Shown here: piece after piece, positions 3-5,602 of the stretch
Layout of the letters: each line of letters opens with the position of its first letter
Numbering within the stretch: position 1 is the stretch's first letter
Assembly: GCA_030042375.1 (NCBI GenBank)
Contig: JASHZU010000382.1
Coordinates: 1-6,005, forward strand
Origin: Verrucomicrobiia bacterium
Lineage (GTDB): Bacteria; Verrucomicrobiota; Verrucomicrobiae; Limisphaerales; UBA11358
Length of the DNA: 6,005 nt
Direction of reading: 5' to 3'
Position numbers and translations under genes: made by a program
The notes under the pieces: generated by a model
What the model was told of the DNA's origin: nothing
Seen by the model: the letters and a program-made list of their open reading frames with translations, nothing else
Databases searched by the model: none

Positions 3-923
3 CCGCAACGGCTGTTCCTGGCGGGCGGGGCGAGCATCATGCCTTACACGGCGCAATTTTTTGCTGAGAAACTCAATGTGCCGGTGGAATATTTCAATCC
101 GTTCCGCAACGTGCAGATTGATCCGTCGGTGAATTTGGAAGCGCTGGCGCGAGTGGCGCATTCCCTGGCCGAAGTGGTGGGGCTGGGACTGCGGAACCTG
201 GCCAATTGCCCCGTAGAAATGAATTTGATGCCGGAGAGCACTTTGCGCTGGCGCAATTTCAATGAAAAGAAACCGTACCTGATGTGCACGGTGTTCGTTT
301 TGGTACTGGTGGGTTTTGCGGTGGGATTTTTGTTTCAGCAACTGGCCCAGCAAAAAGTAACCGAACTTGCAAAAATCCAGCCGCAGCTTGATAGCGCGAA
401 TGCCCAGGTGCAGCAACTGCAAAGAGCACAGCAGTCCTTGAAGGACACAGGGAAAGAGGCAGACCGGATTGCGGAGCTGATCCAGGCCCGGTACTACTGG
501 GGTGGTGTTCTGTCGGACATGCGCCAGGCGCTGATTCATGCGGAAGGCGACATCCAGAAAAAATTGTCCGCACAAAAGCCGGGAGTGGAGGCGGGGATAT
601 GGGTTCAAACCATGACGACCATGGGCGGACCGGCCATCGGAGGAGCTCCCGGGCAGCCACAGATGATGCCCACGGGCAGCATCCAAACGACCAACAACAT
701 GTTTCTTACTTGCCGGGCGGTGAGCCTGGCGAGTGTGGATCCCTCCGCAGACAGCGATATGGCGTACATGGTCCAAAACGAGTTCCAGGCATGCCAGGAT
801 TTTGATCCCAAAGGGACGACGCTTCAGGGTACTGTCAGCCAGCCTGATCCCGATGGGACGTTTACTTTTGGCGTCAATGTGACGCTATTAAATCCGCCCC
901 AAATAAATTCACCGCAATTTTAA
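3..923 (+). CDS. PilM-PilN-like fusion protein (Amuc_1101-type), 5' partial
   Basis: This is the C-terminal 306 residues of a protein whose start lies before the window; the frame is open from base 3, so the ATG at 39 is internal. The first codons give LFLAGGASIM, matching the late nucleotide-binding motif of actin-fold PilM/FtsA-like ATPases, followed by the PilM-typical stretch ending PVEYFNPF. Counting from the ATG at 39, PilM-like sequence ends near residue 58, then MNLMP (61-65) resembles the INLLP start of PilN. A hydrophobic membrane segment spans about 79-101, a Gln-rich coiled coil about 102-150, and a periplasmic domain with a Gly/Pro/Met linker (195-213) follows. Seen: one uninterrupted frame joins both parts. 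Known: PilM is cytoplasmic and binds the short N-terminal tail of PilN, so a fusion makes this contact permanent. Inference: inner-membrane platform of a type IV pilus-like machine. The next gene starts one base after the stop, so they are co-transcribed. Confidence 0.85.
   Translation, partial: PQRLFLAGGASIMPYTAQFFAEKLNVPVEYFNPFRNVQIDPSVNLEALARVAHSLAEVVGLGLRNLANCPVEMNLMPESTLRWRNFNEKKPYLMCTVFVLVLVGFAVGFLFQQLAQQKVTELAKIQPQLDSANAQVQQLQRAQQSLKDTGKEADRIAELIQARYYWGGVLSDMRQALIHAEGDIQKKLSAQKPGVEAGIWVQTMTTMGGPAIGGAPGQPQMMPTGSIQTTNNMFLTCRAVSLASVDPSADSDMAYMVQNEFQACQDFDPKGTTLQGTVSQPDPDGTFTFGVNVTLLNPPQINSPQF
428..447 (+). repeat. 20-bp exact direct repeat, copy 1
   Basis: Twenty bases identical to 1907-1926. 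The copy lies in the coiled coil after the membrane helix of the PilM-PilN-like protein and encodes QQSLKD (residues 131-136 from the ATG at 39). The other copy, in the same reading frame, encodes QQSLKD just after the membrane helix of the Amuc_1099-like protein. Flanking bases differ on both sides. Confidence 0.8.
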
Positions 924-924
924 C

Positions 925-1809
925 ATGGCCTGGATAAAACGAAATTTATTCTTTACGATTGGCGGTGTTATTGCGCTGATCCTGCTGGGCGCTGCGGGGT
1001 ATTATGATTTTAAAGCCTGGGGACAGAACAGTAATAACATGGCAACTTTGTCACAGGCGTATATTGATTTAGCCAATGACTACAGCAAGCCCATATCGCC
1101 GGATAACCAACATCCCAATAACATTGATGTGGCGCATGACCAGGAAAAGCAATTGCGGGACTGGATCGGCCAGGCGAGGAAGTATTTTGAGGTCATTCAA
1201 CCCATTCCCAATCCGCCGGACGGCGTGGTGAAGGACCAGGAGTTTGCCGGCACATTGAGAGAAACTATCCTGAACCTCCAGCAGGAGGCGACAAATAACA
1301 ATGTCGCGTTGCCATCGGATTATGCCTTCTCGTTTGCCGCCGAACGCAACCTGGTGACGTTTTCCCCGGGAAGTTTGAATTTGCTGGCCCAGCATCTTGG
1401 CGAAGTCAAGGCATTGTCCGAAGTTTTGTTTGACGCCAAAATCAATGCCCTCGTCCAAATTCAACGGGAAAATGTTTCCGATAACGATTCCGCGGGACCG
1501 CAAGCGGATTTTTTGAGCGATAAAACCACCACCATCGGCGATGGCCTGGCGACGGTGACACCTTACAGCGTCACCTTCCGGTGCTTTTCCGCCGATTTGG
1601 CGAAGGTTTTATCCAAGCTCGCCGCGTCCAACCATTGTTTTATTGTTGGCGGCATTAACGTCATGCCTGCCGAATCGATGTCGACGGGAGCGGATCAAAC
1701 TCCGCCGCCCGCGCCCATGCCAATGTCCGGGGGTGGATTGCCCACGGTGCTGGATGAAAAACTGTTGCAGGTCACATTGGCGATTGATGTGGTCAAGCTG
1801 AAGCCATGA
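925..1809 (+). CDS. Amuc_1100-like pilus-associated inner-membrane protein (PilO-like)
   Basis: A 294-residue single-pass protein: short cytoplasmic start (MAWIKRN), membrane helix about residues 9-27, then a long periplasmic part. It resembles Akkermansia Amuc_1100 in length (that protein is about 317 residues), in the N-terminal anchor, and near the C-terminus, where a 'VL..L......F.V..I.VMP'-like stretch (228-248) is followed by a Pro/Ala/Met-rich linker (258-273) and a final strand LLQVTLAIDVV (280-290). Known: Amuc_1100 has a PilO/PilN-like fold and is studied as a host-signalling surface protein in Akkermansia; in pilus systems PilO pairs with PilN. Inference: it partners the PilN-like part of the preceding protein. 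The start is one base after the upstream TAA and has no Shine-Dalgarno sequence, so translation is probably coupled. The end overlaps the next start by four bases (ATGA). Confidence 0.85.
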   Translation: MAWIKRNLFFTIGGVIALILLGAAGYYDFKAWGQNSNNMATLSQAYIDLANDYSKPISPDNQHPNNIDVAHDQEKQLRDWIGQARKYFEVIQPIPNPPDGVVKDQEFAGTLRETILNLQQEATNNNVALPSDYAFSFAAERNLVTFSPGSLNLLAQHLGEVKALSEVLFDAKINALVQIQRENVSDNDSAGPQADFLSDKTTTIGDGLATVTPYSVTFRCFSADLAKVLSKLAASNHCFIVGGINVMPAESMSTGADQTPPPAPMPMSGGGLPTVLDEKLLQVTLAIDVVKLKP

Positions 1810-2600
1810 GTTTCCTAAAAAAACATTACGAGAAAATTTTGCTCGGCGCAGTGCTGCTGGGACTGGTGGGATCCCTGCTTTTCTTGCCGGTGATTATTTC
1901 GGCTGAACAGCAGTCCTTGAAGGACAAGGAAGAGAGTATCATTCCACGCAACCCCCGTCCGTTGCCGGCGCTGGATATGACGCTGCAAAATAACAGCCTC
2001 GGGATGGTGCAATCTCCAGTCACGCTGGATTTCGACACCACGAATCGCTTGTTCAATTCGATGCAGTGGGAAAAAGCGGTGGATGGTCACCTGATTAAAA
2101 TTGAAAATGGCACTGAGGTAGGGCCGGGAGCGCTCAAGGTGACCGGTATTGAGCCCCTTTATTTTGTGTTGCGGCTGGACGGGATCGAGCCGGCGAATCA
2201 ATTCAGCGCGGCGCGATATCAGATCGGCGCCGAACACCAGGGCGCGGCGACGCCGGGAGAACGCCATTCCCGAAAACATTTCCTCTCCGTGGGGGATAAA
2301 GATGAGACTTTGCACCTCGTTTCGGTCAGTGGTCCCCCGGATGCCCCGCAATTGAAGATTGAAATCCTCGGGAGCGGCGAAAGCGTGACGGTATCACAGA
2401 CCCAGCCATACCAGGAGGTGGAGGGCTACGAAGCTGACTTGACGTATCCTCCGGAGAACAAGAACTGGAGAGCCCAGCGCGTAGGGGCACTCTTAAAATT
2501 TAACAACAATGACTATAATATTGTTGTCATTGACCAGAATGAAGTGGTAATATCAGCCGAATCAAACCAGAAAAGAACAACAGTACCGTATCAGCCTTGA
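1806..2600 (+). CDS. Amuc_1099-like pilus system protein (PilP-position)
   Basis: A 264-residue protein with a basic N-terminus (KKHYEK), a strong membrane helix at about residues 11-32, and a periplasmic, beta-rich remainder. There is no lipobox cysteine. A Pro-rich linker (47-55) precedes two beta-rich segments: about 68-130 and 155-200. The C-terminal part (about 215-252), with GALLKFNNNDYNIVVIDQNE, has the strand pattern of the small homology-region/PilP-type domains that touch secretin N-domains; this last point is inference from strand pattern only. By gene order it corresponds to Amuc_1099 and sits where pilP sits in pilMNOPQ, between the PilO-like gene and the secretin. Its ATG overlaps the upstream stop (ATGA), indicating translational coupling. 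It may link the inner-membrane platform to the secretin. The family call is firmer than the function. Confidence 0.75.
   Translation: MSFLKKHYEKILLGAVLLGLVGSLLFLPVIISAEQQSLKDKEESIIPRNPRPLPALDMTLQNNSLGMVQSPVTLDFDTTNRLFNSMQWEKAVDGHLIKIENGTEVGPGALKVTGIEPLYFVLRLDGIEPANQFSAARYQIGAEHQGAATPGERHSRKHFLSVGDKDETLHLVSVSGPPDAPQLKIEILGSGESVTVSQTQPYQEVEGYEADLTYPPENKNWRAQRVGALLKFNNNDYNIVVIDQNEVVISAESNQKRTTVPYQP
1907..1926 (+). repeat. 20-bp exact direct repeat, copy 2
   Basis: Second copy of the repeat at 428-447. It encodes QQSLKD at residues 35-40 of the Amuc_1099-like protein, immediately on the periplasmic side of its membrane helix, in the same frame as copy 1. Its origin (chance codon convergence, gene conversion or shared ancestry of the segment) cannot be decided from the sequence. 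Confidence 0.8.
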
Positions 2601-2623
2601 TAAATTTCGTTTAAGTTTAGAAT
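2597..2623 (+). promoter_or_regulatory. Weak candidate promoter before the secretin gene
   Basis: The 55-base gap between the Amuc_1099-like stop and the secretin start is AT-rich at its 5' side. TTGATA (2597-2602, one mismatch to TTGACA) and TAGAAT (2618-2623, one mismatch to TATAAT) are separated by only 15 bases, shorter than the usual 17. Verrucomicrobial promoters may differ from this consensus. It could give the secretin transcription beyond operon read-through. Confidence 0.22.
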
Positions 2624-2655
2624 AGAAATCTGCGCCGCATCGCGCTATCAATCCC

Positions 2656-4923
2656 ATGATCAAAGCCGTTATTTTCCCGATTCCCATAATTCTCCTGCTG
2701 GCCGTTTCCCCTGCGCCCGCCCAAACAACTGATGCCCAAGGCGATGCTGTTAACGAGGCGGTGATGCGCCAGGCCGATGAGATTGTGCTCAGCCAAAAAC
2801 TTGATCTGGCTAGAGCGGCAGTGGCGCAAAAGGATTACGTCGGGGCTTCGAAACTTTACGAAGAAGCATATGTACTGGTTCAGCAGATCGGCGTCGTCAG
2901 CATTCCCCAGCAGGCGGCAGAAACGAAAGCCGGTCTCGTAAGTGTTCACATGGAACTGGCGCGGGAAGCCCAGCGTGAAGGCAATTTGCACGATGCGGAT
3001 GTCCAGGTGACGCGGGTGCTGACTGTGGATCCGCAAAATGCCGAGGCGATTGCTTTTAAGAGACAGAATAACGCGATGATTGCCCAGATGCGCGGCACCC
3101 AGCCGGACCTGGCCACGCAACAGCAGGTGCCGGAAATAATCAATCAAAAGACCGACGCAGCTACGCTGGCGCGAGACGGGCAGTTGCTTTACGAAATGGG
3201 CAAGCTGGACGATGCCCAGGCGAAATTGGAGCAGGCGCTGCAGTTGGATCCGGATAATCGTGGTGCGATATACTATTTGAATTTGGTCAAGCAGGCCCGT
3301 TATGCCCGCGAAGATGCGCATCAGGCCCTTGATAACCTCGACCGGATGGTGCAAGTCGAGCGCGCCTGGCAGAAACCAGTCAATATCGTTACCAATTTTT
3401 CCAACCCATATTTTATGACGAATCTGGTCTACACCGGACAGGGGCGTCAGGCAATCTATAGCAAATTAAATCGCATCCAGATGGACGCCATTGATTGGCA
3501 GCAGATGCCGTTGCATGAAGCGCTTCATTACCTCCGGGACCAGTCCAAATTGCGCGATCCCGATAAACAGGGCATCAATTTTCTTTTCAATCCGAATATA
3601 GAAAATATTCCATCCACGGCGGAAGGTGAAGGCGGGGAAGGCGGCGGAGGTGGTGGAGGGGCGGCGGCGATAAATCCTGCGACAGGGTTGCCGGAACAAC
3701 AGCAGGCTGCAGGCGCCCAACCGGCGGATGACACGGCGATCAATATCAACCTGGAATTGAATAACGTCAACATGGCACAATTATTGGATGCGATTTGCAT
3801 GGTATCGGACCATCCGATTAAATATTCCGTGGAGGATTGGGGTATCGTCTTCTCCCAAAAAGGGCCGGATGCTCCCCAATATGAGATGAGGATATTTAAA
3901 GTGGATCCCAATACGTTTTACGCGGGCTTGCAAAGCGTTGCTTCGTTTTTGTTTGGCTCGGTGAATATCACCACCGGCACTGGTGGCGGTAGCGGTGGCG
4001 GCGGTGGTGGTGGCGGTGGCAATAGTGGTGGTGGTGGCGGTGGCAACGGCAACAGTTCCAGCGGCGCGGTTGTTCCGGTGGTTAATATCGCGCCGGGAGC
4101 CGGCGGTGTTCGTGGCGGACAAGGTGGCGGTGGTGGCGGTGGTGGTGCCGGCGGTGGTGGTGGTGGTGGTGGCGGCGAGGGTGGCGGTGGTATCTTGAAC
4201 AATCCTGTGAGCGAACTGACTGGGACCAGAGTTCAACCCGGCGGCGGTGGTGTGAATTACCTGACGGTGCCAAGTTTAACCCGCGACGTCAGCGCCATAG
4301 CCAAGCAATTCTTTTCCAGCCTTGGCGTTAATTTGGATCCGCCCAAGTCCATGTTCTTTAATGATCGTTTGGGAGAGCTGTTTGTGTATGCGACACCTCA
4401 GGATGAGGACATCATTGAGCGCGCGATACAAGTGCTGAACGAGGTGCCGCCGCAGGTGCATATCAAATCGCGCTTTATTGATGTGGAGCAGGACGACTCG
4501 ACGGGCCTGGGTTTCGATTGGTATTTGGGGCAATTTAGCATCGGAGGCGCAGCGCAAGGACAAGGCGGCAACGCTGGAACGGTGAATGTCCCTTCTTCTT
4601 CAGCCAATCCGTCTGGCACATTTCCGGGCAATCCTGTTGTGGGCGAGGTTGCCCAGACTCTGCCGTCTCTGACCAGCGGACTGACTCAAAATGCGGGCCT
4701 CCCGGCCATTGCCTCGATCACCGGTATTTTGACTAATCCTAATTTTCAAGTGGTGCTGCATATGTTAGAGACGCGTACGGGCACCCAGGAATTGGCCGAG
4801 CCGGAAGTAACGACCATTAGCGGACGACAAACGCAAATGCGGGCAACGATCATCCAACCGGTGGTTGTGGGCTTTACCTTCCAGGCCGCGCCGGCCACAG
4901 CTACCGCTAGCGGAGTGCCGTGA
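2656..4923 (+). CDS. Secretin N-terminal part with TPR-like region and half of the secretin domain (Amuc_1098-type)
   Basis: A 755-residue outer-membrane secretin subunit that stops in the middle of its pore domain. Order of parts: signal peptide 1-22 (cleavage after APA); TPR-like helical repeats about 45-215 (for example LARAAVAQKDYVGASKLYEE and YEMGKLDDAQAKLEQALQLD); an N0/STN-like segment about 270-400 with a Gly/Ala/Gln insertion (323-356); an N-domain starting YEMRIFKV (409-416), broken by a 72-residue glycine-rich loop (441-512) and resuming with helix 543-555 and LGELFVYATPQDEDIIERAI (572-591); then secretin domain first half, HIKSRFIDVEQ (602-612) to VVLHMLETRTGTQ (699-711) and EPEVTTISGRQTQM (715-728). 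It ends soon after, before the usual 'G..L.V.P.I..DG' and 'GGL...vP.LG..P..G.LF' motifs, which occur in the next gene. Start chosen because it gives a clean signal peptide; no Shine-Dalgarno is visible. Last gene-order match to Amuc_1098. Confidence 0.88.
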   Translation: MIKAVIFPIPIILLLAVSPAPAQTTDAQGDAVNEAVMRQADEIVLSQKLDLARAAVAQKDYVGASKLYEEAYVLVQQIGVVSIPQQAAETKAGLVSVHMELAREAQREGNLHDADVQVTRVLTVDPQNAEAIAFKRQNNAMIAQMRGTQPDLATQQQVPEIINQKTDAATLARDGQLLYEMGKLDDAQAKLEQALQLDPDNRGAIYYLNLVKQARYAREDAHQALDNLDRMVQVERAWQKPVNIVTNFSNPYFMTNLVYTGQGRQAIYSKLNRIQMDAIDWQQMPLHEALHYLRDQSKLRDPDKQGINFLFNPNIENIPSTAEGEGGEGGGGGGGAAAINPATGLPEQQQAAGAQPADDTAININLELNNVNMAQLLDAICMVSDHPIKYSVEDWGIVFSQKGPDAPQYEMRIFKVDPNTFYAGLQSVASFLFGSVNITTGTGGGSGGGGGGGGGNSGGGGGGNGNSSSGAVVPVVNIAPGAGGVRGGQGGGGGGGGAGGGGGGGGGEGGGGILNNPVSELTGTRVQPGGGGVNYLTVPSLTRDVSAIAKQFFSSLGVNLDPPKSMFFNDRLGELFVYATPQDEDIIERAIQVLNEVPPQVHIKSRFIDVEQDDSTGLGFDWYLGQFSIGGAAQGQGGNAGTVNVPSSSANPSGTFPGNPVVGEVAQTLPSLTSGLTQNAGLPAIASITGILTNPNFQVVLHMLETRTGTQELAEPEVTTISGRQTQMRATIIQPVVVGFTFQAAPATATASGVP
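3622..3660 (+). repeat. Glycine-codon tract 1 in the secretin
   Basis: Low-complexity GGN run encoding residues 323-335 of the secretin (Glu/Gly mix then seven glycines), followed by an Ala run. It sits between strands of the N0/STN-like segment and probably makes a flexible loop. Confidence 0.85.
3976..4191 (+). repeat. Glycine-codon tract 2 in the secretin
   Basis: A 216-base low-complexity region of GGT/GGC codons encoding residues 441-512, of which 47 of 72 are glycine, with runs of nine, six, eight and nine glycines and a short hydrophobic island (AVVPVVNIAP) in the middle. It lies between the first strand/helix and the rest of an N-domain. Long Pro/His/Thr-rich open frames on the opposite strand here are by-products of the repeat. 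Confidence 0.9.
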
Positions 4924-4940
4924 TCTGCCAACTTTAATGT

Positions 4941-4946
4941 GAGGAG
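4941..4946 (+). promoter_or_regulatory. Strong ribosome binding site of the second secretin gene
   Basis: GAGGAG followed by five A residues and then ATG at 4952. It is the only strong Shine-Dalgarno match before any start in the window, and it decides for the ATG at 4952 over the in-frame ATG at 4961, which would be too far away. A frame-2 TGA (4940-4942) overlaps it. Confidence 0.85.
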
Positions 4947-4951
4947 AAAAA

Positions 4952-5602
4952 ATGAAAAGAATGACGAAAAAATCTAGACTCATTGCCGGTCTTTTGGCGT
5001 TACCCGCCCTCGGCACGGCTATGACTACCAGCGCCCAGGTTACCACGATTGCCCCAGGCGTCTCAGCCATCACTCCGGAAGTGCAACAGATCGAAACCGG
5101 CCCAATCCTCGACGTGCTGCCCGATGTCCTGTCCGATGGCTATACGATTAATTTAACGCTGATTCCGTCCCTGATCGAGTTTACCGGCTATCAGTCGCCC
5201 CCAAACCTGGGAGACTTTACCACTGGCGGCCTCAATGTGGTGCTATTGCCCACGGTTCTGCCTGAATTCAGTGTGCGTGAAGTAACAACGACGGTTAATG
5301 TATGGGATGGGCAAACCGTCGTTCTGGGCGGATTGGTGGACTCTACTTTATCGGATGAAAGGCAAACGGTCCCCGTGCTGGGCGATGTACCGGTTTTGGG
5401 AAGGCTTTTTCAGAGCAGTACAAAGACCGAGACCAAGCGGAATTTGATGATTTTTGTGACAGCCACATTGATTGATCCGGCGGGCAATCGGGTGCATTCG
5501 GACGATGAGATGCCTTTTGCGCAAACGGCCATCCCATCGCAGCCTGCTGCTTCCCCGGGACAGTTGCAGATGGGTCAAATCAATCCGTCGGGCGGCCAAT
5601 AG
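4952..5602 (+). CDS. Separately encoded C-terminal half of the secretin domain, with its own signal peptide
   Basis: A 216-residue exported protein. Residues 1-28 form a classic Sec signal peptide: basic start (KRMTKKSR), hydrophobic core LIAGLLALPALGTAM, and cleavage near TSA|Q. The mature part starts at the point where the upstream 755-residue protein ends within the secretin domain: PILDVLPDVLSDGYTINLTL (51-70), then VREVTTTVNVWDGQTVVLGG (108-127), VPVLGDVPVLGRLF (140-153) and NLMIFVTATLIDPAG (164-178). These are the motifs of the second half of the secretin family (PulD/GspD/PilQ). No TPR, N-domain or first-half motif is present. A Gln/Pro/Gly/Ser-rich tail (184-216) ends it. It starts 28 bases after the upstream stop in another frame and has a strong ribosome binding site. 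Inference: it co-assembles with the upstream protein into one ring. Alternative: recently broken and non-functional, made less likely by the intact signal peptide and ribosome site. Confidence 0.88.
   Translation: MKRMTKKSRLIAGLLALPALGTAMTTSAQVTTIAPGVSAITPEVQQIETGPILDVLPDVLSDGYTINLTLIPSLIEFTGYQSPPNLGDFTTGGLNVVLLPTVLPEFSVREVTTTVNVWDGQTVVLGGLVDSTLSDERQTVPVLGDVPVLGRLFQSSTKTETKRNLMIFVTATLIDPAGNRVHSDDEMPFAQTAIPSQPAASPGQLQMGQINPSGGQ

Follow-up and report, generated by a model that had tools for sequence, protein, structure and literature searches.

Can the pore domain of a secretin be built from the products of two genes? A secretin is generally regarded as a ring of identical subunits, usually 12-15, with one chain per subunit, and the question is raised by a 6,005-nucleotide (nt) stretch of a contig from a Verrucomicrobiia bacterium (JASHZU010000382.1, assembly GCA_030042375.1), hereafter the window. 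The preliminary description of this stretch proposed that the pore domain is divided over two genes, each with its own signal peptide: a protein of 755 residues (chain A) would carry the N-domains and the first half of the secretin domain to about residue 742, and a protein of 216 residues (chain B) would supply the missing second half behind a Sec signal peptide of its own. These assignments stand, with tetratricopeptide repeats (TPR) added to chain A. Both open reading frames are present, in different frames and 28 nt apart, and both start with stretches that read as signal peptides. We consider it probable (about 0.8), from sequence comparison, that the locus encodes a pilus secretin of the outer membrane, of Amuc_1098 type and made from two genes, in which chains A and B build one pore. 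Beyond the preliminary description, our results place the break in Gate 1, the loop at the centre that closes the pore, show that it recurs in several lineages, and support more than one switch between the split and fused states.

Position of the break in the pore domain

Profile searches place the two chains on either side of a cut within the secretin domain. Chain B matches PF00263 over profile positions 43-168 of 169 (5.2e-29) and the Amuc_1098 family profile NF042912 over positions 655-804 of 805 (119 bits). Its matches among solved structures comprise 22 distinct sequences, each of them named or entered as a secretin, and the best is PulD (2.2e-16). Chain A had no PF00263 match up to E 1 in the Pfam profile search; it matches NF042912 with 202 bits (best stretch 19-376 of 805), with weak matches to the earlier portions of the GspD, PilQ and MshL models, and its only sequence matches to solved structures lie in the glycine linker. 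Neither chain reaches the curated whole-protein cut-off of NF042912 (750 bits), as would be expected for halves of a diverged family member. The first approximately 40 positions of PF00263, which are missing from chain B, align to the end of chain A, and in two other split loci chain A does match the start of this profile (positions 1-38 of 169 in L102 and 1-41 of 169 in L117; L numbers denote loci, G numbers genomes and P numbers proteins).

The position of the cut was read from an alignment of 55 intact proteins with 33 rows of chain A and 23 of chain B (111 proteins in all, those of the window included), in which the intact 910-residue protein P0145 is the first row. The chain A rows pass through the SGRQ..MRAT motif and then end in a Ser/Thr/Gly-rich stretch; the mature chain B rows open with ...PGVSAITP..QQ.ETGP.LDV, the stretch that precedes ETGP in the intact rows. 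The end of chain A and the start of mature chain B meet, without overlap, in a single hypervariable S/T/G-rich loop of the intact relatives, and no conserved column was seen in this alignment to be missing or duplicated across the pair. The conserved parts of an intact secretin are each represented once in the pair of mature chains, with the break in place of the Gate 1 loop tip. In 40 split loci the free ends of the two chains (medians of 16.5 and 13 residues) sum to approximately the length of the intact loop (median of 27 residues in 45 intact loci, from 43 distinct intact genomes).

The model of P0145 matches solved secretins, and structure comparison on this model placed the break in Gate 1. 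For f1 phage pIV and the GspD and PilQ secretins, PMC8563730 describes a barrel with a double wall and two gates, Gate 1 and Gate 2; there each subunit is one chain, of the fold that the model of the intact relative matches. Here the break lies inside the pore domain, so that the pore strands of a subunit are not all on one chain, and chain A is without the later ones.

Judged by eye and with a loose rule, chain B begins with what reads as a signal peptide of the Sec type, with a basic start, a hydrophobic core and a TSA|Q end. Within the range of lengths searched, chain B has 3095 relatives at E <= 0.001; among the best 120 of these 3095, 119 are 203-238 residues long and one has 173. Of the 119 relatives tested, 117 pass the loose rule, as do roughly half of shuffled N-termini. 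An alignment of 25 chain B proteins has Ala28 in every row and Gln29 in nearly every row; the other signal-peptide positions vary apart from the start Met, and the secretin signature columns are retained. What carries the case against decay is not the loose rule but the conservation of the cleavage site, the alignment and the substitution rates given below.

Of the chain A relatives, the 120 listed are mostly of 700-780 residues and most have the same kind of tail; six carry PF00263. We also observed that the C-termini of split chain A proteins (P0121-P0240) mostly form a short Ser/Thr/Gly tail with a final Pro or Gln, alike in kind and not in sequence. A separate observation concerns the GGN repeat tract of chain A (window 3960-4200), which opens long antisense frames rich in Pro, His and Thr.

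Distribution, selection and history of the split

We read the same split arrangement in the window and in 39 other genomes, and it is therefore not due to chance. The 16 named loci comprise eight split and eight intact ones. In the family of nearest relatives (the family of G003, which includes G001-G007), 49 genomes besides the window's own were surveyed: 32 are split, 14 intact and three without a call (G132, contig end; G138, long-frame paralogue match only; G139, no match). Among the matches listed in a survey of 116 genomes of the order, 11 are split, 79 intact, 12 without a call (G031, G045, G055, G058, G068, G071, G072, G074, G076, G079, G098, G102) and 14 without a match at the threshold. 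The 11 split genomes are G007, G057, G095 and G119, all of the family, together with G008, G054, G061, G070, G083, G096 and G111. The 79 intact calls consist of 16 read at the DNA level and 63 made from a stop-free match row that spans the break and was not individually read; some of the 63 are at 39-45% identity and could be paralogues. All 15 genomes of the order with a stop in the spanning row were read, and 14 of these are intact and one (G054) split.

For 38 of the 40 split loci at least one candidate start gives a gap of 14-39 nt between the chains; in the other two the gap is 72 and 208 nt. All three frame offsets between the halves occur (16, 9 and 15 of the 40), and an [AG]Q motif lies 10-18 residues ahead of the core in every locus. 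The split may have been overlooked through annotation: sources that give a name often list chain A as 'tetratricopeptide repeat protein' or 'hypothetical protein', and chain B as 'general secretion pathway protein D'.

In the pairs tested, purifying selection acts on mature chain B while its signal peptide drifts. Between L003 and L004 the ratio of nonsynonymous to synonymous rates (dN/dS) is approximately 0.16 for chain A and 0.21 for mature chain B; over the 25 codons of the signal peptide it is close to 1. The mature parts gave the same picture in five other pairs, with dS high or saturated in most of them. Intact relatives do exist beside the split forms, but with 32 of the 49 nearest-family genomes split, both parts under selection, and neither overlap nor a conserved gap in the alignment, the natural split secretin put forward in the preliminary description remains the best reading.

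The history of the split was followed on trees of paired loci. In the core tree (54 loci, 340 columns) the split/intact character needs five changes, three of them forced by the starred branches; the long alignment (862 columns) needs nine, with seven forced, and the two alignments differ in detail. A wider-sampled tree (85 rows, 83 of them different; 338 columns) needs eight changes, four of them forced by starred branches, its bootstrap not being settled. Rows L095 (re-read as L097) and L132 were left out. Splits outside the main clade adjoin or mingle with intact genes (L008 by L009-L011, L119 by L125, as well as L134, L117/L131 and L101/L102), and fused genes lie inside the split clade. 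Constraining the 32 family splits together gave p-AU values (approximately unbiased test) of 0.04 for the core and 0.003 for the long alignment; constraining the 13 intact family rows together was not rejected in either (0.09 and 0.098, respectively). FastTree trees of single halves, which are weaker evidence than the paired loci, gave five changes with three forced for B (230 rows, the core cut out by profile) and 15 with six forced for A (225 rows, the unpaired ones called split by length and lack of PF00263). Their intact set consisted of 95 database proteins of 860-1010 residues, without named M56 fusions, and eight loci. More than one change between split and intact is supported by these trees, and at least one re-joining is the simplest reading given the intact outgroup; independent splits or gene transfer could share in the pattern.

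A probable two-chain pore and its alternatives

If chains A and B build one pore, both would cross the inner membrane separately through Sec and would meet in the periplasm, where A may bring its own escort in the form of its TPR domain. One ring would assemble with an A+B pair as every repeat unit. Chain A would contribute the initial strands of the outer barrel together with the inner strand that runs up to Gate 1; chain B would contribute the inner strand that runs away from Gate 1, as well as Gate 2 and the final outer strands. Free chain ends, in place of a closed loop, would make up the central gate, which would still pass a pilus.

Several points speak for other readings. Split genomes also carry other secretin-like frames and chimeras of an M56 peptidase with a secretin (L047, L049), and a new role could in principle be acquired by either half; separate genes permit separate dosage, and the break falls exactly at the gate; the genes are adjacent, at the short spacing described above; and intact relatives exist. 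The first of these would fit a reading in which chain B has left the pore, A being a periplasmic or outer-membrane TPR scaffold and B a separate exported protein, with another secretin serving the pilus. We regard this as unlikely, as chain B keeps the secretin signature columns, selection on the two chains is similar, split and intact forms fill the same slot of the gene array, and fused genes are nested in the split clade. The chimeras L047 and L049, which are BlaR1-like membrane peptidase fusions, were rejected as a replacement for the split secretin, since such chimeras also occur in the intact-secretin genomes G013 and G016.

Separate dosage and the position of the break would suit two pools of rings, in which rings of A alone are immature or open and B joins at a later stage, supplying a regulated gate and the half that closes the ring. 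The chances of this appear small: the short spacing within one gene array argues for joint expression, and chain A alone would be without about half of the strands. Adjacency would also suit the restoration of one chain by frameshift, readthrough or splicing, but the cut at Gate 1 occurs in three frames with a signal-peptide-like stretch and its [AG]Q motif between the halves in all 40 loci, and recoding is therefore rejected as very improbable. Recent gene decay or assembly error, which the intact relatives might suggest, has a negligible chance in view of the same split in 39 other genomes and the purifying selection on both parts in the pairs tested.

Gene array, chimeric relatives and known secretins

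All genes of the window lie on the + strand, in the order Amuc_1101-type (end), Amuc_1100-type, 264-residue protein, chain A, chain B and the start of an exonuclease-domain gene (Table 1). The Amuc_1101-type and Amuc_1100-type genes adjoin the split secretin with matches below the curated cut-offs. Their order, followed by the unnamed gene, is kept upstream in 15 of the 16 loci, split or intact alike; the sequence of the 16th, L001, starts inside chain A. The exonuclease-domain (polA-like) gene lies 3' of the secretin in 8/8 split loci versus 1/8 intact ones. By eye, the Amuc_1101-type protein (window 3-923) seems to consist of the end of PilM and a membrane-anchored, coiled part downstream.

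Table 1. Features of the window and, where a locus is named, of chimeric loci
Feature	Position	Strand	Basis or remark
Amuc_1101-type PilM-like protein, C-terminal part	3..923	+	NF045709 7.5e-42, under curated cut-off
Amuc_1100-type pilus-like protein	925..1809	+	NF038287 5.9e-18, under curated cut-off; present in 15/16 loci
Unnamed array protein, 264 residues	1806..2600	+	directly upstream of chain A in 15/16 loci
Chain A, 755 residues: exported TPR, N-domains and first half of secretin domain, end in Gate 1	2656..4923	+	
Chain A signal peptide, residues 1-22, ...SPAPA|Q	2656..2721	+	read from sequence
Chain A TPR region, residues ~27-235, ends approximate	2734..3360	+	Pfam TPR_2 1.2e-09 at 175-201; helical repeat in intact-relative model
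Chain A glycine-rich linker, residues ~440-510, GGN repeats in DNA	3973..4185	+	sequence; low predicted local distance difference test score (pLDDT) at equivalent place of relative
Chain A first half of secretin domain, residues 575-742	4378..4881	+	TIGR02517 575-722, TIGR02515 560-738; alignment
Chain A C-terminal stub in Gate 1 loop, residues ~738-755	4867..4920	+	alignment, intact-relative structure comparison
Intergenic stretch, 28 nt	4924..4951	+	Shine-Dalgarno-like GAGGAG at 4941-4946
Chain B, 216 residues: exported second half of secretin domain	4952..5602	+	PF00263 5.2e-29
Chain B signal peptide, residues 1-28, ...TSA|Q	4952..5035	+	conserved A28/Q29 in chain B alignment
Chain B secretin core, residues 41-176	5072..5479	+	profile matches, structure-sequence matches, alignment
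Protein with 5'-3' exonuclease domain, start of gene	from 5686	+	
S74-type split locus L101	265-2946 + 2986-3708		
S74-type split locus L102	181-2952 + 2974-3684		
S74-type split locus L117 (G111)	58-3054		
M56/secretin chimera L047	1418-4810		
M56/secretin chimera L049	1272-4235		
M56/secretin chimera L140 (G013)	94-4536		
M56/secretin chimera L141 (G016)	265-5517		

The BlaR1-like M56 peptidase (PF05569)/secretin (PF00263) chimeras are encoded on one chain, in split and intact genomes, and place a secretin domain on a protein resembling a membrane sensor; P0242 is a further example, and a frame of G015 (L142) has the M56 domain without PF00263. In three split loci (L101, L102 and L117), chain A runs beyond the break into a Peptidase_S74 (endosialidase chaperone) domain (PF13884: 2.2e-13, 6.8e-12 and 4.2e-09, respectively), and chain B is separate with its own signal-peptide-like start. 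The Pfam search found no PF13884 on the chain A of the window, which differs from these loci in this respect. When the S74-type chain A end was compared with 293 genomes of the order, only these three loci matched both the secretin and the S74 parts among the matches listed. S74 domains are trimeric and cleave themselves at a Ser-Asp motif, which we take the SDRNLK/SDRNVK start of the present domains to fit. A search of the open literature for Peptidase_S74 together with a secretin found no paper.

The closest known system is PilQ (Amuc_1098) of Akkermansia muciniphila, the NF042912 family, with the same order of TPR, N-domains and secretin and with adjacent Amuc_1100- and Amuc_1101-type genes. 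However, Amuc_1098 is a single chain of 907 residues, whereas here a cut at Gate 1 leaves a second half that carries a signal peptide of its own. PMC4960237 describes Amuc_1098 as an abundant protein located in the outer membrane. Two-gene secretins conserved within a lineage are described, in PMC3574062 and PMC3973906, for the rhizobial type III secretion system (RhcC1/RhcC2) and for Pseudomonas syringae (HrcIIC1/HrcIIC2); according to PMC4500985, RhcC1 is a remnant, and RhcC2, next to it, is a Tad-like secretin that was acquired. In this rhizobial pair the cut lies between the N-terminal and C-terminal domains, before the pore domain, the genes are apart and their origin is mixed. In contrast, both parts described here correspond to one gene of the intact relatives, and it is the pore domain itself that is cut. 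Among the papers listed by our searches of the open literature, subscription papers and preprints excluded, we found no report of a secretin split within its pore domain. The split secretin of this environmental Verrucomicrobiota group is real and conserved and, as far as these searches reach, undescribed.

We tentatively propose, with somewhat less than even confidence, that Gate 1 is an evolutionary hinge that has been repeatedly cut and re-joined. The resulting two-chain pores would be functional (about 24-30 chains per ring if there are 12-15 units), with a gate of free ends, and in one sub-lineage an S74 domain on chain A would help assembly and then trim itself off. If true, such S74-aided building of a barrel from parts would be a way of assembly that we have not met described for any secretin. 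The two-chain pore, if it is real, would mean that the gate loop need not be continuous, and would provide a natural system for studying how a giant double-walled barrel assembles and opens, with natural split and fused pairs available for comparison.

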